DNA from: Sphingobacteriaceae bacterium
GTDB lineage: Bacteria > Bacteroidota > Bacteroidia > UBA7662
NCBI GenBank assembly: GCA_030682795.1
Contig: JAUXNJ010000019.1
Location: 1-64,000 of the forward strand
Direction of reading: 5' to 3'
Length of the DNA: 64,000 bases
Part shown: positions 3,538 through 40,918 of the stretch, piece after piece
Position numbering within the stretch: the stretch's first letter is position 1
Layout of the letters: each line of letters begins with the position of its first letter
Position numbers and translations under genes: made by a program
The notes under the pieces: generated by a model
Databases searched by the model: none
Told to the model about the DNA's origin: nothing
What the model saw: only the letters and a program-made list of their open reading frames with translations

Positions 3538-3690
3538 GATTTGGGATTTGCGATTTCGATTGGCGATTTATGATTTTGGCGGTAATGTGGGATGCTGGCC
3601 AACGAAGTATGAATTGGAATGGCGAATAGCGAATCCGGTTCGAGGACAACCCATTATTTTACCGCAAAGGGCGCAGAGAACGCCAAACTA
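3538..3690. repeat. Family B and family F repeat remnants
   Basis: 3538-3573 is a family B block (GATTTGCGATTTCGATTGGC type). 3658-3688 holds a single family F arm (TTTTACCGCAAAGGGCGCAG), related to the arms at 38523, 39605 and 40150. The region separates the WecA-like gene from the WbpM-like gene. Confidence 0.65.
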
Positions 3691-5831: not shown

Positions 5832-6021
5832 GGGGATGGATGCTCTGGGATAGGTTTGAGCGCGTGTAACAGCTTCCCTGAGTTCATTGAGGGTACCGCA
5901 GAGGGCGCGAAGGCGCAGAGGGGATTTGCGATTTGAAATTCGCTATTCGAAATTTGACAGACGGTGTTCGAAGGCGCTTTTTAAACGCTCTTTGCGTTTT
6001 TTGCGAACTCCACGGTAAAAA
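5832..6021. repeat. Family C long repeat, left copy flanking the ATPase gene
   Basis: A ~190-bp unit that recurs nearly identically at 7443-7626 in the same orientation. Both begin GGGGATGGATGCTCTGGG, contain GAGGGTACCGCAGAGGGCGC, and end with GGTGTTCGAAGGCGCTT, a run like AAACGCTCT-TGCGTTTT and a GGTAAAA tail. Within each copy the CCGCAGAGGGCGC half and the CTCTGCG half are inverted with respect to each other, so the unit can fold back; these arms belong to the same family (F) that flanks the GxxExxY gene at 39745. Confidence 0.85.
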
Positions 6022-6062: not shown

Positions 6063-7373
6063 TTACATATCTCGTAACGATAAGCCCTGATAATCAATCT
6101 CGTAACCATTAAAATCAAGGAGCAACTTTTTAGCTTTTTCCTTTAGTTTGGGAAGACTGATTTGATTGGGATTCCGCTTTACTTCAGCAATCAATATGCG
6201 CTTACTCAACTCATTTATTGCTACAATATCAATTTCGTTTTGATTATCACGCTCCCAATACGTACCGATGAGGTTATAGCTTTTTTCTGCCTTTAACTTT
6301 TCAATGAAGTATTTTTCTAAAAACCTCCCACAAAAAGTTGGATAATCGCGCACCACCAGCTCTTTGATATAGGCTAAGTTACCGATTTCAATCGCGCTGC
6401 GATGCTTGAATATAAATCGAAACCAAAAGTTTAAAAAATTGTCCTCAACCGTATATTTAACCATTCGACTATTTGGCTTAGCCAAAATAGGTCGGATCTT
6501 TTTAATCAATCCATAGTCATTCTCCAGACGATCGAGGTGGCCCCCTACAGTTGTTTCAAGAATGGATTCAATGGCAGGTCGAGACGTTTTACCTGAGGCG
6601 ATAAGCGAAAGAATAGAAAAATAAATTCCGTATTCCTTTCCAAATTCTTCTATCAACAAATGTTTGCCTTCTTCGATAAAAAGTGAATTTTCGGTGAAAA
6701 CATATTCTAAAATCGCATCTAAATGAAGTGCCTTGTTTAGCAACAATAGCTCTACGTACTTAGCAACGCCCCCGGTAAATAAGTAAAAAGCCAATAAGTC
6801 TTCTTTGGCATAACCGGGAGCATTTTCCTCCATTATTTGCGCTAAGGTAGCCACGTCAAAAGCTTTCACATGCAAACGGTGCGTTGCTCTTCCAAATAAA
6901 GGTTCTTTACTGCCCTCAAATATGCGCGTCATCAACGAATACACCGATCCACAAAGCACTAGATTTATTTTACTACTATCCTTATGTGCATCCCAAAGAT
7001 GTTGCATGTCTGAGAACACAGCCGCATTCACTGTATTGAATTCCTGAAATTCATCGATAATCAAAGTAAAATGCTGTGACTTGGAAAGCTCCATCAGCAA
7101 AGCAAATATTTCTTTAAATGATTTGATTTCACCAAATATTGGCACTTCTAGTTTTCTTTTGATTTCCTCTGTAAATTCAGCACAAAGCAGGGTTTCGCTT
7201 TTTTTACTCACGAAAAAATACAATGATTTGCTATGAGCATAGGCTTTAGAAATCAAACTTGTTTTACCAATTCTACGGCGACCTACTACAAAAGTCATCT
7301 GTGCAGCTAGCGTTGCTAACTGTTCAATTTTAGCCAGCATGGCTAGTTCTGACGTTCTGTTATAAAATTTCAT
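6063..7373 (-). CDS. P-loop ATPase with C-terminal nuclease-like (DUF234) domain
   Basis: Member of the archaeal-type STAND/AAA ATPase family common in prokaryotic accessory regions. Visible are a P-loop GRRRIGKTSL near residue 31, a Walker B motif LIIDEFQEF around 105, sensor-like LVLCGSVYSLM around 140, a winged-helix stretch around 255-300 and a C-terminal DUF234 region with NEIDIVA and AEVKRN, resembling the D...ExK core of PD-(D/E)XK nucleases. I place the start at the Met of MKFYNRTSEL, the usual N-terminus; an ATG four codons upstream also exists. The cellular role of the family is not established. The gene is isolated and bracketed by two family C repeats, which suggests it moves or was acquired as a cassette. 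Confidence 0.8.
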   Translation of the reverse strand: MKFYNRTSELAMLAKIEQLATLAAQMTFVVGRRRIGKTSLISKAYAHSKSLYFFVSKKSETLLCAEFTEEIKRKLEVPIFGEIKSFKEIFALLMELSKSQHFTLIIDEFQEFNTVNAAVFSDMQHLWDAHKDSSKINLVLCGSVYSLMTRIFEGSKEPLFGRATHRLHVKAFDVATLAQIMEENAPGYAKEDLLAFYLFTGGVAKYVELLLLNKALHLDAILEYVFTENSLFIEEGKHLLIEEFGKEYGIYFSILSLIASGKTSRPAIESILETTVGGHLDRLENDYGLIKKIRPILAKPNSRMVKYTVEDNFLNFWFRFIFKHRSAIEIGNLAYIKELVVRDYPTFCGRFLEKYFIEKLKAEKSYNLIGTYWERDNQNEIDIVAINELSKRILIAEVKRNPNQISLPKLKEKAKKLLLDFNGYEIDYQGLSLRDM

Positions 7374-7442
7374 TTTCAACTGCAATATACATTACAGTAA
7401 CCGGAATTACAATAGGTGGGGGATTCGAAATTTGAGATTCGA

Positions 7443-7626
7443 GGGGATGGATGCTCTGGGGTAGGTTTGAGCGCGTGTAACAGGTTCCCTGAGTTTATTG
7501 AGGGTACCGCAGAGGGCGCGAAGGCGCAGAGGGGATTTGAAATTCGGAATTTGAAATTCGACTGGCGGTGTTCGAAGGCGCTTCCTAAACGCTCTCTGCG
7601 TTTTCTGCGACCTCTGGGGTAAAAAA
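7443..7626. repeat. Family C long repeat, right copy flanking the ATPase gene
   Basis: Direct-repeat partner of 5832-6021. It differs by scattered substitutions and a few small indels in the family B-like middle (GAAATTCGGAATTTGAAATTC). See the left copy for shared blocks. Confidence 0.85.
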
Positions 7627-17933: not shown

Positions 17934-18018
17934 GATCGAACGCGGAGCACGCGGATTGAACGGATTTGCGCGGATTTGATCTGTGAGTATCAGCCAAATC
18001 CGTGTCATCCGTGTTCTA
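17934..18018. repeat. Family E hairpin between the GxxExxY gene and fnlB
   Basis: GATCGAACGCGGAGCACGCG ... GCGCGGATTTGAT on the left arm and AAATCCGTGTCATCCGTGTT on the right arm. It begins 3 bases from the fnlB start codon and its right end supplies the TAG stop of the GxxExxY gene (18018-18016). Confidence 0.8.
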
Positions 18019-18420: not shown

Positions 18421-18516
18421 TATGGAACGCTGAACACGCGGATTAAGCTGATTAACGCGGATTTAATCAGTGAAAATCCGCCCAATCCGCCCAATCCGCG
18501 TCATCCGTGTTCTATT
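18421..18516. repeat. Family E hairpin upstream of the GxxExxY gene (first of tandem pair)
   Basis: Full-length unit: TATGGAACGCTGAACACGCG, GATTAACGCGGATTTAATC, then CAGTGAAAATCCGCCCAATC and CGTCATCCGTGTTCTAT. Its left end lies 13 bases from the ATG of the GxxExxY gene. A second unit follows at once. Confidence 0.85.
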
Positions 18517-36110: not shown

Positions 36111-38509
36111 CGGTTGATTTGGCTAAACAGTAGGTATAAAGTGGCTAGTCCCGTTAATTTCACCGTGGTATTTTCAATCACCCGGTTCCAATTAACCGGC
36201 TCCCCTTTTTCTTTTTCCCTTTTCGTAATTTCCTTTTCCATCACATAAATGGTGGCTCCAGGTGTAACTTTTGGATATACCCTGAGTCCTAGATAAGAGC
36301 GGGTGCGAGACACCTTGTCGTCTGCAGCCACTACGAATAATCGACGCTTATTGGCCCTTTCGCTAAAACCATCACCATAACGCTTAACAAAGCCATCGGC
36401 CCGCAATCCTGTTTTGAAGGGCGCATTTACCGCCTCTAAACCAGTAGTATTGAGGTATTGCACACCTAAACCTTGGATGCTTACATAGGGTACAAATTCA
36501 GGAACACTGATACTATCACCATCTTGAAGGCGGTAGTTATAGCGGGAGCTCAACGATCGGAGTACTTTACTCAAGTCGAGCAGCACCTGTCCTCCGGGAG
36601 CCGTTTGGCGATAAAACTTAGCGGCCTCTACAAAGGCATACGGTTTCAAACCCCCGGCACGCTGAATGAGGTCTGATACCCGCTCGTCTCTGCTCAACAA
36701 GGCATAGGTGCCTGGGAAGTTAAATTCACCCGTAAGGGTAACGCTGGCAGGGCTCATAAAATCGGCCAAGGTACGTACATACACCCGGTCGTATGGCATG
36801 AGCATTTTGCTTAAATCAGCACCTTTGAGCTCCCCATTCTCAACTTCTACACTTACCGTAAAAATGCGTGACCCTGCTTTTTTCTGTTCATCAAAAAGCG
36901 AAATGCGAATGATTTCGATGCGTTTTACATCGGCTTCAGGTTTCAACCCACCTACTTGTAATAACAAATCGCCTAGAGTTAATCCGCTGGCATATTCAAT
37001 GGCGCCAGGCTTCCGCACCGCGCCAATTACCTGTATGTCGTAGGTGTCAATTAAATCACTTTTGGAAGCCACCAATAATTTATCGTACGGCTGCAGCTTT
37101 ATATTGGCGCCCGACAAGCTATCGGCCATCAACCCATTCAAATCTAAGGCAATCATTTCGCGACTTGCATCCGTTTTTCTTCGCGATAAAAAGGCCTTTT
37201 GCATATAGGCAGTGGGTTTAAGCCCCCCAGCCCTGCGAATGAGCTCATACACGGTGATGTTGGGTTCAAAGGTATAACTGCCTGGCTGGTTCACATCCCC
37301 ATCAATCTCTAAGGCATTGCGTACATCATCGGGTAAGCCACGTACCAAAATTTGATCCCCATCCCGCAGGCTATCCAGCGGCATTTTACCAGCCGTCATC
37401 TGAAACTCTTTTACTTCACGTGCGCCATTGGCAAAGGTGATGCGCTGGATGCTTCCTTGATAGGCGTTACTACTGAGTCCACCTGCCCAATCAATGAGGG
37501 CTTCTAGTCCTTCAGAGGGCAATAACTCATAAGTTGCTGGCCGGCGCACAGCTCCCTCCAGTTCTACAATACTGCCCAAGGCCTTTACCACAATGTAATC
37601 TTGGTCTTCTAAGCTAAAAGGCTTATTGCTCAACTTACCTGCTAAAAAATGATAGGTATCGAAACGATACACCACTTTGCCAGCGCGCTGCACTTCGATT
37701 TGCCGCACAGAACCCGCCTCAGAAGGGCCACCAGCGGCTAGCAAGGCATTAAAAACCGAGTTTAAGGCAGAAAACTCGTAGGTGCCTGGATTGTTCACTT
37801 CACCCACCACATTCACCTTTATCACCCGGCTAAACAGCAAGGTAATTTCAAGTTGGTTGTTATTTAAGTCGTAATACTGCCCAAATTTAGCACGAATGAG
37901 CTTACGAGCCGCTTCAAAAGTTAAGCCCGTGAGGTAAAGGGTACCCATGCCCTTCACCCTTGCTGCCCCTTTACTATCGATTTTAACAACCTCGTTGGCA
38001 TAAGATACCCCAAAAACCGATACCACCAATTCATCACCAGGACCTAACACATAGGTATCGGGCGCTTTGGTATCAGTGGCTTGTCCCATCAATTGTAAAT
38101 TACCCGATTGGTAAATACTTCTACCATACAGGGCTGGTTTGCTGCCATCTAGCGCTACTACTTCGGTTTGTACCTCTGGTCGTGGCACCACTGCAGCGGG
38201 TTTTAAAATGTTTTTAGCTGGTGCAGGTGCAGCCACGGGTGTTAAAACGGTTTCTTTGATAGGATTGCTTCCCATGCCTGCTAAACGCGTTTTAAAAGCC
38301 AAGGCCTCAGCAGCGGGCAAACCCATGCTTAAGGCCAAATTTTCACCATCGGTAATGTTTAGCCCTCGGGCTTCGCCCTGCTTTACGATGTCGCGAATTT
38401 GGTCATCGCTCAATTCAGAGACTTTAATTTTGCTCAGGTCGGTAGGCATTTGCGCCCAAGCTAGTGAGGTGATGGTAAGTAGGAAAAGGAGGAGGAGGTG
38501 TTTACGCAT
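36107..38509 (-). CDS. wza: Wza-like outer-membrane polysaccharide export protein (SLBB repeats)
   Basis: 800 residues with a signal peptide (MRKHLLLLFLLTITSLAWAQ). A Poly_export (BON/PES) domain around 150-215 (YVLGPGDELVVSVFGVSYA, then KGMGTLYLTGLTFEAARKLI) is followed by a series of SLBB beta-grasp repeats recognisable by the recurring NxPGTYEF / PxxVxELIxxAGGL pattern (about 235, 320, 405, 495, 605). A C-terminal hydrophobic segment (VKLTGLATLYLLFSQINR) may span the outer membrane. Much longer than E. coli Wza, as usual for Bacteroidota. Forms the export channel partner of the Wzz protein encoded downstream. Confidence 0.88.
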   Translation of the reverse strand: MRKHLLLLFLLTITSLAWAQMPTDLSKIKVSELSDDQIRDIVKQGEARGLNITDGENLALSMGLPAAEALAFKTRLAGMGSNPIKETVLTPVAAPAPAKNILKPAAVVPRPEVQTEVVALDGSKPALYGRSIYQSGNLQLMGQATDTKAPDTYVLGPGDELVVSVFGVSYANEVVKIDSKGAARVKGMGTLYLTGLTFEAARKLIRAKFGQYYDLNNNQLEITLLFSRVIKVNVVGEVNNPGTYEFSALNSVFNALLAAGGPSEAGSVRQIEVQRAGKVVYRFDTYHFLAGKLSNKPFSLEDQDYIVVKALGSIVELEGAVRRPATYELLPSEGLEALIDWAGGLSSNAYQGSIQRITFANGAREVKEFQMTAGKMPLDSLRDGDQILVRGLPDDVRNALEIDGDVNQPGSYTFEPNITVYELIRRAGGLKPTAYMQKAFLSRRKTDASREMIALDLNGLMADSLSGANIKLQPYDKLLVASKSDLIDTYDIQVIGAVRKPGAIEYASGLTLGDLLLQVGGLKPEADVKRIEIIRISLFDEQKKAGSRIFTVSVEVENGELKGADLSKMLMPYDRVYVRTLADFMSPASVTLTGEFNFPGTYALLSRDERVSDLIQRAGGLKPYAFVEAAKFYRQTAPGGQVLLDLSKVLRSLSSRYNYRLQDGDSISVPEFVPYVSIQGLGVQYLNTTGLEAVNAPFKTGLRADGFVKRYGDGFSERANKRRLFVVAADDKVSRTRSYLGLRVYPKVTPGATIYVMEKEITKREKEKGEPVNWNRVIENTTVKLTGLATLYLLFSQINR

Positions 38510-38522
38510 GTACTTTAGGTTT

Positions 38523-38562
38523 TTTTTACCGCGGAGGGCGCGGAGGACGGGGAGGGGTTTTG
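38523..38562. repeat. Single family F arm
   Basis: TTTACCGCGGAGGGCGCGGA and following GGACGGGG: a lone arm of the CCGCAGAGG-type repeat in the short gap between rmlB and the wza-like gene. Confidence 0.6.
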
Positions 38563-38579
38563 GGCTATTTTATTTGCAA

Positions 38580-39587
38580 TTAGCCTTGAAACAAAGCCAG
38601 ATAATAATCAACGGTGGTACTGAGGTATGCGTCGAATTTTTGCTTCGGCTCCCAGTTTAAGTCGTTTTTTAATTTGCTGGCATCAATGGCATAGCGCAAA
38701 TCGTGGCCTTTGCGGTCGGTTACATAGCTAATGAGTCCCGCTGACGTGCCACTCGGGCGATTCAGCTTTTGATCGAGGATGCCACAAAGCTTTTTCACCA
38801 GCTCAATGTTCATCCACTCATTGTTGCCACCCACGTTATAAGTTTCGCCTGAAACACCCTTATGCCAAATGGCATCCATGGCGCTTACATGATCCCCCAC
38901 AAACAGCCAGTCGCGAATGTTCTCGCCTTTGCCGTAAACTGGAATGGGCTTGTTTTGAATGATTTGCTTAATCACCACCGGAATCAACTTTTCGGGATAT
39001 TGGTTTGGGCCATAGTTGTTCGAGCAATTGCTAATCACCACTGGCAAACCAAAAGTCTCATGGTAGGCACGTACAAAATGATCGCTGGAGGCTTTAGAAG
39101 CTGAATAAGGAGATCTTGGATCATAAGGCGTGTCTTCACGGAAGAGGCCTTCTGCACCCAAACTGCCGTATACTTCGTCGGTGGAGATGTGGTAAAAGAG
39201 GTATTTACTTCTATCGGCATGTTCGCCCCAGGCCTTCACCGCTGCATTCAAAAGGGTAACCGTACCCACCACATTGGTCATTACAAATTCCATGGGGTTT
39301 TCGATGGAGCGGTCCACATGACTCTCTGCCGCCAAATGCATCACTCCGTTGATCTCGTATTTAGCGAACAAGTCGGTGATGAGTTTAGCGTCGCAAATAT
39401 CGCCTTGAACGAAAACGAAATTGGGCTTGTCTGCAACTTCCTTGAGGTTGGCAAGATTGCCAGCATAGGTCAATTTATCCAACACAACAATTCTATACCT
39501 TGGGTAGGCCGTGACAAAATGTTTAACCGCATGGCAGCCGATGAAGCCAGCACCACCAGTTAGCAGTATGTTTTTTTCGAAGGTCAT
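38580..39587 (-). CDS. rmlB: dTDP-glucose 4,6-dehydratase
   Basis: 335 residues, extended SDR. ILLTGGAGFIGCHAVKHF (NAD site), LDKLTYAGNLANL, HLAAESHVDRSIENP, HISTDEVYG with the Thr-Asp-Glu catalytic elements, YSASKASSDHFVRAY with the YxxxK pair, and NCSNNYGPNQYPEKLIP: all hallmarks of RmlB. Provides dTDP-4-keto-6-deoxyglucose for the WecE/WecD branch. rmlA, rmlC and rmlD are not seen in the window, so dTDP-glucose must come from a gene elsewhere and no rhamnose branch is evident here. Confidence 0.94.
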   Translation of the reverse strand: MTFEKNILLTGGAGFIGCHAVKHFVTAYPRYRIVVLDKLTYAGNLANLKEVADKPNFVFVQGDICDAKLITDLFAKYEINGVMHLAAESHVDRSIENPMEFVMTNVVGTVTLLNAAVKAWGEHADRSKYLFYHISTDEVYGSLGAEGLFREDTPYDPRSPYSASKASSDHFVRAYHETFGLPVVISNCSNNYGPNQYPEKLIPVVIKQIIQNKPIPVYGKGENIRDWLFVGDHVSAMDAIWHKGVSGETYNVGGNNEWMNIELVKKLCGILDQKLNRPSGTSAGLISYVTDRKGHDLRYAIDASKLKNDLNWEPKQKFDAYLSTTVDYYLALFQG

Positions 39588-39604
39588 TTATAGGATAAAG
39601 TTAG

Positions 39605-39640
39605 TTTTTTCACCGCAGAGGTCGCTGAGGTCGCAAAGAA
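39605..39640. repeat. Family F arm, left flank of second GxxExxY gene
   Basis: TTTTTTCACCGCAGAGGTCG and CTGAGGTCGCAAAG. Inverted counterpart of 40150-40186, which enclose the GxxExxY gene in an element of about 580 bp. The same arms occur face to face, without a gene, inside the family C units. Confidence 0.8.
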
Positions 39641-39744
39641 GATAAACGTTGACATTGCTCATTCTGCGCAAATGTTTTCAAAAATACCGTAAGAATTTGC
39701 TTTTGGGTCTTTGGTATACTAAATTTTCTAAAAATTGAAAGCTC

Positions 39745-40143
39745 ATGAACTCCAAAGATTTAAATCAAATTGGCTTTAGTGTGGTAGGTGCTGCCATTGA
39801 AGTTCACAAAACACTTGGACCTGGTTTGCTTGAAAGTATCTATCAAAAAGCCATGGAGGTAGAACTTAAGTCTCGAAAACATATTGTCAAAACCGAAGTA
39901 CTAGTCCCAGTAGTTTACAAAGAGGAAGTCATTGCAAATGACTTAAGAGTTGATCTTTTGGTTGATGATGCAGTAATCATTGAATTGAAAGCTGTAAGCG
40001 AAATTCATCCAAAAATGCAATCGCAACTGCTCACTTATTTACGTCTAACTGATTTAAAACTAGGATATCTAATTAATTTCCATGAGGTAAAGCTGCTAGA
40101 TGGTCTTCAACGGTTCGTGAACAACTTCGACCGGGCTGTCTAA
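39745..40143 (+). CDS. GxxExxY protein (PD-(D/E)XK_3 nuclease-like)
   Basis: 132 residues; GLLESIYQ at about 28-35 is the name-giving motif, preceded by GAAIEVHKTLGPG. The core LRVDLLVDDAVIIELKAVSE (about 70-89) shows D...(E)LK as in PD-(D/E)XK nucleases; LTYLRLTDLKLGYLINF is the typical C-terminal strand-helix. Homologous to the 18016-18408 protein but clearly diverged, so not a recent duplication. Plus strand, opposite to its neighbours, and enclosed between inverted family F arms. Function of the family is unknown. Confidence 0.9.
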   Translation: MNSKDLNQIGFSVVGAAIEVHKTLGPGLLESIYQKAMEVELKSRKHIVKTEVLVPVVYKEEVIANDLRVDLLVDDAVIIELKAVSEIHPKMQSQLLTYLRLTDLKLGYLINFHEVKLLDGLQRFVNNFDRAV

Positions 40144-40149
40144 ACCATC

Positions 40150-40186
40150 CTTTCAGCGCTCTCTGCGTCCTCTGCGGTGAAAAAAT
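40150..40186. repeat. Family F arm (inverted), right flank of second GxxExxY gene
   Basis: CTTTCAGCGCTCTCTGCGTC and CTCTGCGGTGAAAAAAT, the reverse complement of the 39605-39640 arm with few differences. It begins 7 bases after the GxxExxY stop and runs into the stop codon of the convergent regulator gene at 40186. Confidence 0.8.
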
Positions 40187-40713
40187 CACTTCGTCCAAAG
40201 CACAATGTGCGGCTCAGATTCAAAATCATATCCCAACCCAGTTCCATCCGAGGGTTGTATGCTATATCGAATTTTTCGCTTGATAAGGCCTTCAGCCTTG
40301 GGAATGAGTTGGCTCAAATATTGAAGATCAATTTGGCCAATGAGCCGCAGATCAATCACCCCACTGTCGGTGCCTTTGGCATAATCGCCTACTACTACTG
40401 CTAATTCTAAATCGCCCAATCTACCTAATACAGACTCTATAATCTGATCAAAACCTAAATACTTTGATACCAAGCTTCTGATATCCCCATAAATGGGGTG
40501 TTTGGTATTGGCCTTGTAAAGTATGGTATTGCCAGCGTTCTCCGACTCCAATAAACCCGCCTCTGAAAGTCTGTTCAGCTCCACACGTACGGCATTGGTG
40601 CTCTCCCCAAATTCATCCGCCAAAGAGCGCAAATAGGCTTTATTACTCTGATTGCTGAAAAATTTCAACAAGAGCTTAATACGAGTCTTAGAAGTAATGA
40701 GTGTTTCGAGCAT
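40186..40713 (-). CDS. Winged-helix regulator with degenerate nucleotidyltransferase domain
   Basis: 175 residues from MLETLITSKTRIKLL. Residues about 5-75 are an ArsR/MarR-like winged helix (IKLLLKFFSNQSNKAYLRSL, then STNAVRVELNRLSEAGLLES). The C-terminal half (LGDLELAVVVGDYAKGTDSG, VIDLRLIG) looks like a MNT-type nucleotidyltransferase fold, but the Gly-Ser and paired Asp of the active site are not intact, suggesting a sensory rather than catalytic role. Such regulators recur in Bacteroidota polysaccharide loci. A perfect 22-bp palindrome 184 bases upstream (40897-40918) is a candidate binding site. A longer frame to 40800 exists but its N-terminus has no domain character. Confidence 0.72.
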   Translation of the reverse strand: MLETLITSKTRIKLLLKFFSNQSNKAYLRSLADEFGESTNAVRVELNRLSEAGLLESENAGNTILYKANTKHPIYGDIRSLVSKYLGFDQIIESVLGRLGDLELAVVVGDYAKGTDSGVIDLRLIGQIDLQYLSQLIPKAEGLIKRKIRYSIQPSDGTGLGYDFESEPHIVLWTK

Positions 40714-40896
40714 CCAAATGGATTTTTCGAGCTTTGGAAGGAAATTAAAAAACAAGCAGCTGTTAGATTTACACAGCTTCGCCTCCTCAGTCCCAGTCAT
40801 TGCTCGAGAACGAGTAGTTTTTTTACACGAACAAAGAACGAAAACAATTTTTGTTCTGCCAAAAGACTGTACATTATTTTATTGTGAAGGATGACA

Positions 40897-40918
40897 ATAT
40901 ACCCTAATTAGGGTATAT
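40897..40918. promoter_or_regulatory. Perfect 22-bp palindrome, candidate operator
   Basis: ATATACCCTAA followed directly by its exact complement TTAGGGTATAT. It lies in the divergent gap between the winged-helix regulator (minus, from 40713) and wbpE (plus, from 41140), where an operator of such a regulator would be expected. No other copy was noticed in the window. Confidence 0.55.

Follow-up and report, generated by a model that had tools for sequence, protein, structure and literature searches.

GxxExxY nuclease genes and inverted CRCNRAG arrays as parts of a probable REPtron-like element

At positions 39745 to 40143 of a 64,000-nt stretch (hereafter the window; all coordinates are window positions) of a 3.14-Mb genome, a gene of the GxxExxY family lies between two inverted arms, and the same arms recur nearby with no gene between them. 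The locus raises the question of whether gene and repeats form a single element, with gene-bearing and gene-less versions, or whether they have other reasons to stand together. Here, we examine the locus itself, the association of arms and gene in other genomes and the occupancy of shared sites, and weigh a REPtron-like element against its alternatives.

The GxxExxY locus and its arms in the source genome

The left arm (39605-39643, plus strand, TTTTTTCACCGCAGAGGTCGCTGAGGTCGCAAAGAAGAT) carries the units CGCAGAG, CGCTGAG and CGCAAAG, and is answered by an inverted right arm at 40147-40185 on the minus strand (TTTTTTCACCGCAGAGGACGCAGAGAGCGCTGAAAGGAT). The arms are 39 nt each, 79% complementary and separated by 503 nt, and no other inverted pair was found in the region 38400-40900. 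The open reading frame between them (39745-40143, plus strand) encodes a PD-(D/E)XK nuclease of 132 aa, which matches PF13366 PDDEXK_3 (E 6e-39, 133.4 bits, curated cut-off 22) and TIGR04256 GxxExxY (E 3e-39, 133.9 bits, curated cut-off 35) only, and does not qualify as an HUH Y1 transposase. The gene differs in orientation from both of its neighbours, which are on the minus strand, unlike most of its relatives. The arm pair and the profile matches thus confirm the original prediction of a GxxExxY gene enclosed by inverted arms.

Seven residues are invariant in GxxExxY proteins (G27, E30, Y33, D70, E80, K82 and Q94), and all catalytic residues are conserved. The AlphaFold2 model (pLDDT 93.8) has a predicted fold of the Cas4/lambda-exonuclease type; its nearest PDB structures are SSO0001, a Cas4-family nuclease, followed by LHK-Exo and lambda exonuclease (best E 3e-3, no close match), and a search for a solved structure related by sequence found none. 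The PF13366 match, the conserved catalytic residues and the predicted fold agree with the assignment of GxxExxY to the PD-(D/E)XK superfamily that had been proposed.

The same arms had also been predicted to face each other without a gene within units at 5832-6021 and 7443-7626 and to occur singly near 3658 and 38523, and all were located there. The gene-less fold-back at 5893-6021 has the facing arms CGCAGAG/CGCGAAG/CGCAGAG and CGTGGAG/CGCAAAA/CGCAAAG, and that at 7504-7626 is its near-copy; the single arms, both on the plus strand, lie at 3658-3690 (TTTTACCGCAAAGGGCGCAGAGAACGCC) and 38523-38560 (TTTTTTTACCGCGGAGGGCGCGGAGGACG). Exact matches to ACCGCRGAGGNCGC number five in the 3.14-Mb genome, all five inside the window, and allowing one mismatch adds two sites that resemble arms, again in the window, and three isolated ones outside it. 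Across the whole genome searched, the exact and arm-like one-mismatch sites all fall within 3661-40178 of the window, and this arm type is therefore confined to ~36.5 kb around its gene.

The source genome holds four GxxExxY genes, and all four have inverted flanks, each pair different in sequence. Besides the reported gene (L003), the window contains L002 (18016-18408, minus strand), whose inverted arms at 17935-17977 (plus strand, ATCGAACGCGGAGCACGCGGATTGAACGGATTTGCGCGGATTT) and 18474-18515 (minus strand) are built from a different unit (CGCGGAT/CGCGGAG). L001 has the arms AAACACGGAGGTCACGGAGGACACGGAG, while the fourth gene, L004 (C9:36823-37170), is accompanied by a 160-bp degenerate inverted repeat that is unrelated to CRCNRAG.

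Arm architecture and distribution across genomes

Generality was examined with 80 named loci and 30 more genomes of the class, the named gene relatives being mostly from Bacteroidota. The surveyed GxxExxY flanks share a common plan, in which TTTAACC is followed by three to four CRCNRAG units (R = A/G) in steps of 9-11 bp, with the opposite flank inverted. An inverted-repeat score of at least 13 was reached by 54/73 GxxExxY loci compared with 17/413 other ORFs from the same loci. Under a stricter test, at least two CRCNRAG units on both flanks were found at 54/109 GxxExxY loci and at 3/411 other ORFs (p = 9e-39); about half of the GxxExxY loci fail this test, and as the loci were picked by similarity to typical members, the flank fraction holds for that part of the family. 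These comparisons reject the proposition that GxxExxY flanks are no better than those of random genes, and uphold the prediction that inverted repeats flank GxxExxY genes generally.

Among the best-scoring control ORFs were several four-helix-bundle-type proteins and one RAYT, each accompanied by distinct repeats of its own. The two-flank CRCNRAG test was passed by 0/30 four-helix-bundle, 0/26 RAYT and 0/24 DUF234 genes, and arms as a general trait of small multicopy genes were rejected on these grounds; the pairing of gene and arms is specific to the GxxExxY family. The four-helix-bundle genes (TIGR02436, S23-like) have, in many genomes, inverted flanks of a 7-bp-period word (for example GTATTGAGTATTTAGTATTGAG), with a median inverted-repeat score of 19 at loci L177-L206 (e.g., L187, L190 and L201), and apparently constitute a parallel system. 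In the window, an AAA ATPase gene with a DUF234 domain (6063-7385) lies between near-identical gene-less fold-back units at 5832-6021 and 7443-7626. We rejected a tie between this ATPase and the arms, and take its position as incidental, because other DUF234 genes are without them. DUF234-type ATPase genes (L314-L320) often have a TTTTGGCGAATTATAA-like motif on both sides, inverted.

Which features of the arms are retained bears on what may recognize them. Between the two arms of a locus, identity is.99 at C1,.90 at R2,.99 at C3,.96 at A6 and.97 at G7 of the unit, and.74 in the spacers, while mismatches comprise 83 G-U-compatible and 101 incompatible transitions (p = 0.21). The retention of unit letters but not of spacers, with no G-U bias, fits recognition of a DNA word and not selection on an RNA stem; an IVS-like RNA stem under selection was rejected for want of G-U asymmetry. 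Proteins and arms are correlated (Mantel rho 0.26, p = 0.001), but this correlation is confounded by phylogeny and is therefore not used as proof of coevolution, and the excess of within-locus over between-locus arm similarity is inflated by the arm-picking procedure. One-sided tandem amplification of arms was observed at L072, L001 and L128; at L072, a Dyadobacter locus, there are three copies of a ~100-bp unit and the gene has a stop codon.

Scanning 247 genomes for the arm pattern AACCRCNRAGN{1,4}CRCNRAG gave 1200 matches, whereas the reversed pattern, used as a control, gave 0-3 per strand per genome. GxxExxY genes were found in 154 of these 247 sampled genomes of the class. At least one arm was present in 108/154 gene-bearing and 20/93 gene-less genomes (p = 6e-14), with means of 7.0 and 1.2 arms per genome, respectively. 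The association holds when stratified by family (odds ratio 6.3, p = 0.0008) and when gene labels are shuffled within families (p = 0.0002). Three genomes are exceptions, having no GxxExxY gene and 59 (G204), 15 (G181) and 14 arms (G180, which is 99% complete); a search of the three for GxxExxY genes or relics gave nothing convincing even at E <= 10. The original prediction that the repeats occur only where a cognate gene exists therefore stands as a strong association and fails as a strict rule: arms abundant without the gene, the second outcome named beforehand as speaking against it, were in part observed.

The element has a median size of ~530 bp and fits closely between genes: in 30/41 loci, no more than 12 bp separate the upstream stop codon from the start of the left arm, and the median distance from the end of the right arm to the following start codon is 16 bp. 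GxxExxY genes are co-directional with both neighbours in 50/59 cases (controls, 152/251), for instance where the gene separates radA from an FAD-dependent protein gene in Bacteroides or fabD from fabG in Sphingomonas. In-frame stops are present in 4 of 80 GxxExxY copies. One arm architecture extends across phyla, with GxxExxY and the same arms also present in Bernardetia, Bacteroides finegoldii, Sphingomonas and Gemmatirosa, where the gene lies between two whole fold-backs. They were further found in metagenome-assembled genomes labelled Spartobacteria (upstream fold-back only), Anaerolineae and Methanosarcinales, labels that may be wrong. Occurrence in 5 of 72,556 plasmid records and 0 of 50,697 phage records, a near-absence from both, resembles that of a chromosomal repeat system.

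Gene-less relatives and filled and empty sites

An autonomous/non-autonomous relation between gene-bearing and gene-less units had been proposed from the window, where only the arms are clearly shared between the two. Kinship of the two forms is borne out in G011, which has one gene-bearing element (on C36, flanked on either side by AACCACAGAGACACAGAG arms) together with no fewer than five gene-less fold-backs of ~200 bp whose ends are the same as, or nearly the same as, those of the C36 element. One of these matches the C36 element over 104 bp at its left end, well past the arm, identifying the gene-less fold-backs as true relatives of the gene-bearing unit, and one is a near-perfect predicted hairpin (z = -17.7). 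Within the G011/G144 fold-back set, pairing is kept by two-sided changes at 11/47 pairs. Likewise, G187 contains fold-backs of 65-90 bp with the arm type of its own gene, and G131 has two arm subtypes, with matching arms at two of its GxxExxY genes.

Comparison of related genomes, which had been suggested as a check, revealed empty sites. In genus g15, the junction of a pair of aldehyde dehydrogenase genes holds the element in G142, G009 and G051, and holds it twice in G166; in G247, G249 and G086 it is empty and the two genes nearly abut. The site is thus filled in some members of the genus and empty in others, as in a mobile element, gain being inseparable from loss in this comparison. In filled sites, TTAACC of the arm often supplies the TAA stop of the upstream gene. 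In other genera, this junction carries a full element (G174 and G084), GxxExxY with other arms (G097), solo arms (G035 and G073) or nothing, and in G112 a gene-less palindrome precedes the second aldehyde dehydrogenase gene. The junction (L222-L251) is a repeat hotspot, whose occupant varies with the genus among the GxxExxY unit, solo arms and unrelated palindromes, or is lacking altogether. No target-site duplication was found, as 44 loci showed no excess over permuted flanks. Related species carry the element at orthologous positions (L084/L076 and L070/L072), suggesting that it moves rarely.

A probable element and its alternatives

With the gene between mirror-image arrays and gene-less arrays in the same genomes, gene and repeats look like one element, and we consider it probable that GxxExxY and its inverted CRCNRAG arrays constitute a REPtron-like unit of ~530 bp whose sole protein is a PD-(D/E)XK nuclease. 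Such a nuclease would have its gene flanked by two copies of the site that it recognizes, and would most likely bind tandem CRCNRAG units, which lie 9-11 bp, or about one helical turn, apart. It may then nick or resect the arms themselves or the hairpin that two facing arms can form, after which host replication, recombination or repair would place new copies of the unit between cistrons or retain it in the population. The gene-less fold-backs and single arms would be passive derivatives that use the nuclease in trans. Binding, cleavage and protein-driven copying of the arms are steps that we infer from these patterns. Several observations count against this reading, namely the lack of target-site duplications, the 14-59 arms in three genomes that have no GxxExxY gene, the roughly half of loci that fail the strict two-flank test, the unrelated 160-bp repeat at L004 and the orthologous positions shared by related species; presence and absence at a site could also come about by loss.

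The position of the element would also suit arms that are control sites of the resident gene, through which GxxExxY regulates itself or an mRNA stem is processed to set expression within an operon. The genes are usually inside operons and co-directional with their neighbours (50/59 versus 152/251), the arms follow directly on the upstream stop (30/41 within 12 bp) and end a median of 16 bp before the next start, and the G011/G144 fold-backs retain pairing, in part by two-sided changes. However, many gene-less arm pairs are located elsewhere, empty sites exist, and the mismatches (83 versus 101, p = 0.21) lack a G-U bias and so do not indicate that an RNA stem is under selection; we therefore regard this explanation as unlikely. 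We consider it improbable that GxxExxY is cargo and that the arms belong to another mobilizer, such as a RAYT or an unknown nuclease. The arm-rich genomes that have no GxxExxY gene (G204, G181 and G180) and the presence of Y1 transposase genes in every genome checked speak for a separate mobilizer, but RAYT genes carry their own hairpin REPs (0/26 with CRCNRAG arms), four-helix-bundle genes have their different 7-bp-period array (0/30), the arms do not recurrently enclose any other gene family (3/411), and the same arms go with GxxExxY in several phyla.

A nuclease fold with an intact active site, encoded by genes that are patchy, multicopy and sometimes broken, might instead indicate a defence or addiction device, in which DNA is the target of the nuclease and the arms serve as decoys or as a label or shield for self. 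Yet no partner gene was noticed and the genes sit in housekeeping operons (fabD-fabG, radA and paired aldehyde dehydrogenases), which makes such a device quite improbable. Short purine-rich words are common in the intergenic DNA of these genomes, and ordinary local repeats could thus flank a gene by chance or low complexity; this is hardly credible given the same-locus and same-genome controls (17/413, 3/411 and 0/30), which refute it, and the 0-3 matches per strand per genome of the reversed pattern.

The REPtron-like reading places the element closest to RAYT/TnpA-REP systems, which likewise have a small protein gene between two inverted repeat copies, gene-less REP and REPIN copies elsewhere in the genome as facing pairs and singles, a chromosomal location and a gene in low copy. 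Repeats also pile up near the gene in some RAYT genomes, as they do in the window; Nunvar et al. described repeats accumulating close to the cognate gene for some RAYT genes (PMC2817692). The predicted likeness in logic to RAYT/REP thus holds in detail. However, RAYTs are HUH Y1 enzymes and GxxExxY is a PD-(D/E)XK nuclease, REPs are GTAG-headed palindromes and the arms are TTTAACC plus CRCNRAG arrays, and RAYT genes in these genomes have repeats of another kind. Having neither an HUH enzyme nor a GTAG palindrome, the GxxExxY element therefore lies outside the RAYT/REP family definition.

Other systems share single features. MITEs and their parental insertion sequences also combine a full-length unit with short derivatives that keep its ends (as over ~104 bp in G011), but the GxxExxY element encodes no DDE transposase, a test of 44 loci revealed no target duplication, and its gene-less copies are palindromic over almost their whole length. 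GxxExxY shares its predicted fold, the catalytic D-ExK and the Q-x3-Y motif with Cas4, lambda exonuclease and RecB-type nucleases, but is a single domain of 125-130 aa with no helicase, Cas1 or recombinase partner. The 23S rRNA intervening-sequence (S23-like, TIGR02436) four-helix-bundle genes are small genes between inverted arrays in the same genomes, yet their protein is unrelated and their arms have a 7-bp period (CRCNRAG, 0/30). PD-(D/E)XK homing endonuclease genes are similarly small, expendable and patchy, but GxxExxY is intergenic with inverted repeats, not within an intron or intein, and occupies many unrelated sites per genome. A literature search, with subscription papers and preprints outside its scope, found no publication on a GxxExxY-arm element and only passing mentions of GxxExxY; the arm strings matched only unrelated sequence.

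We give even chances to the broader proposal of a new class of repeat element, present in several phyla, in which a lone Cas4/lambda-exonuclease-like nuclease recognizes, spreads or maintains CRCNRAG arrays and their miniature derivatives. If true, this would be a third independent invention of a small protein with cognate inverted repeats, beside RAYT/REP and the four-helix-bundle genes with their 7-bp arrays. Such a system, whether it transposes or maintains its repeats, would rely on an unusual enzyme and might supply a compact nuclease with sequence specificity, and the defined DNA word provides a substrate with which to test a protein family found in 154 of 247 sampled genomes. The link between arms and gene would also account for some of the repeat DNA interspersed between genes in these genomes.
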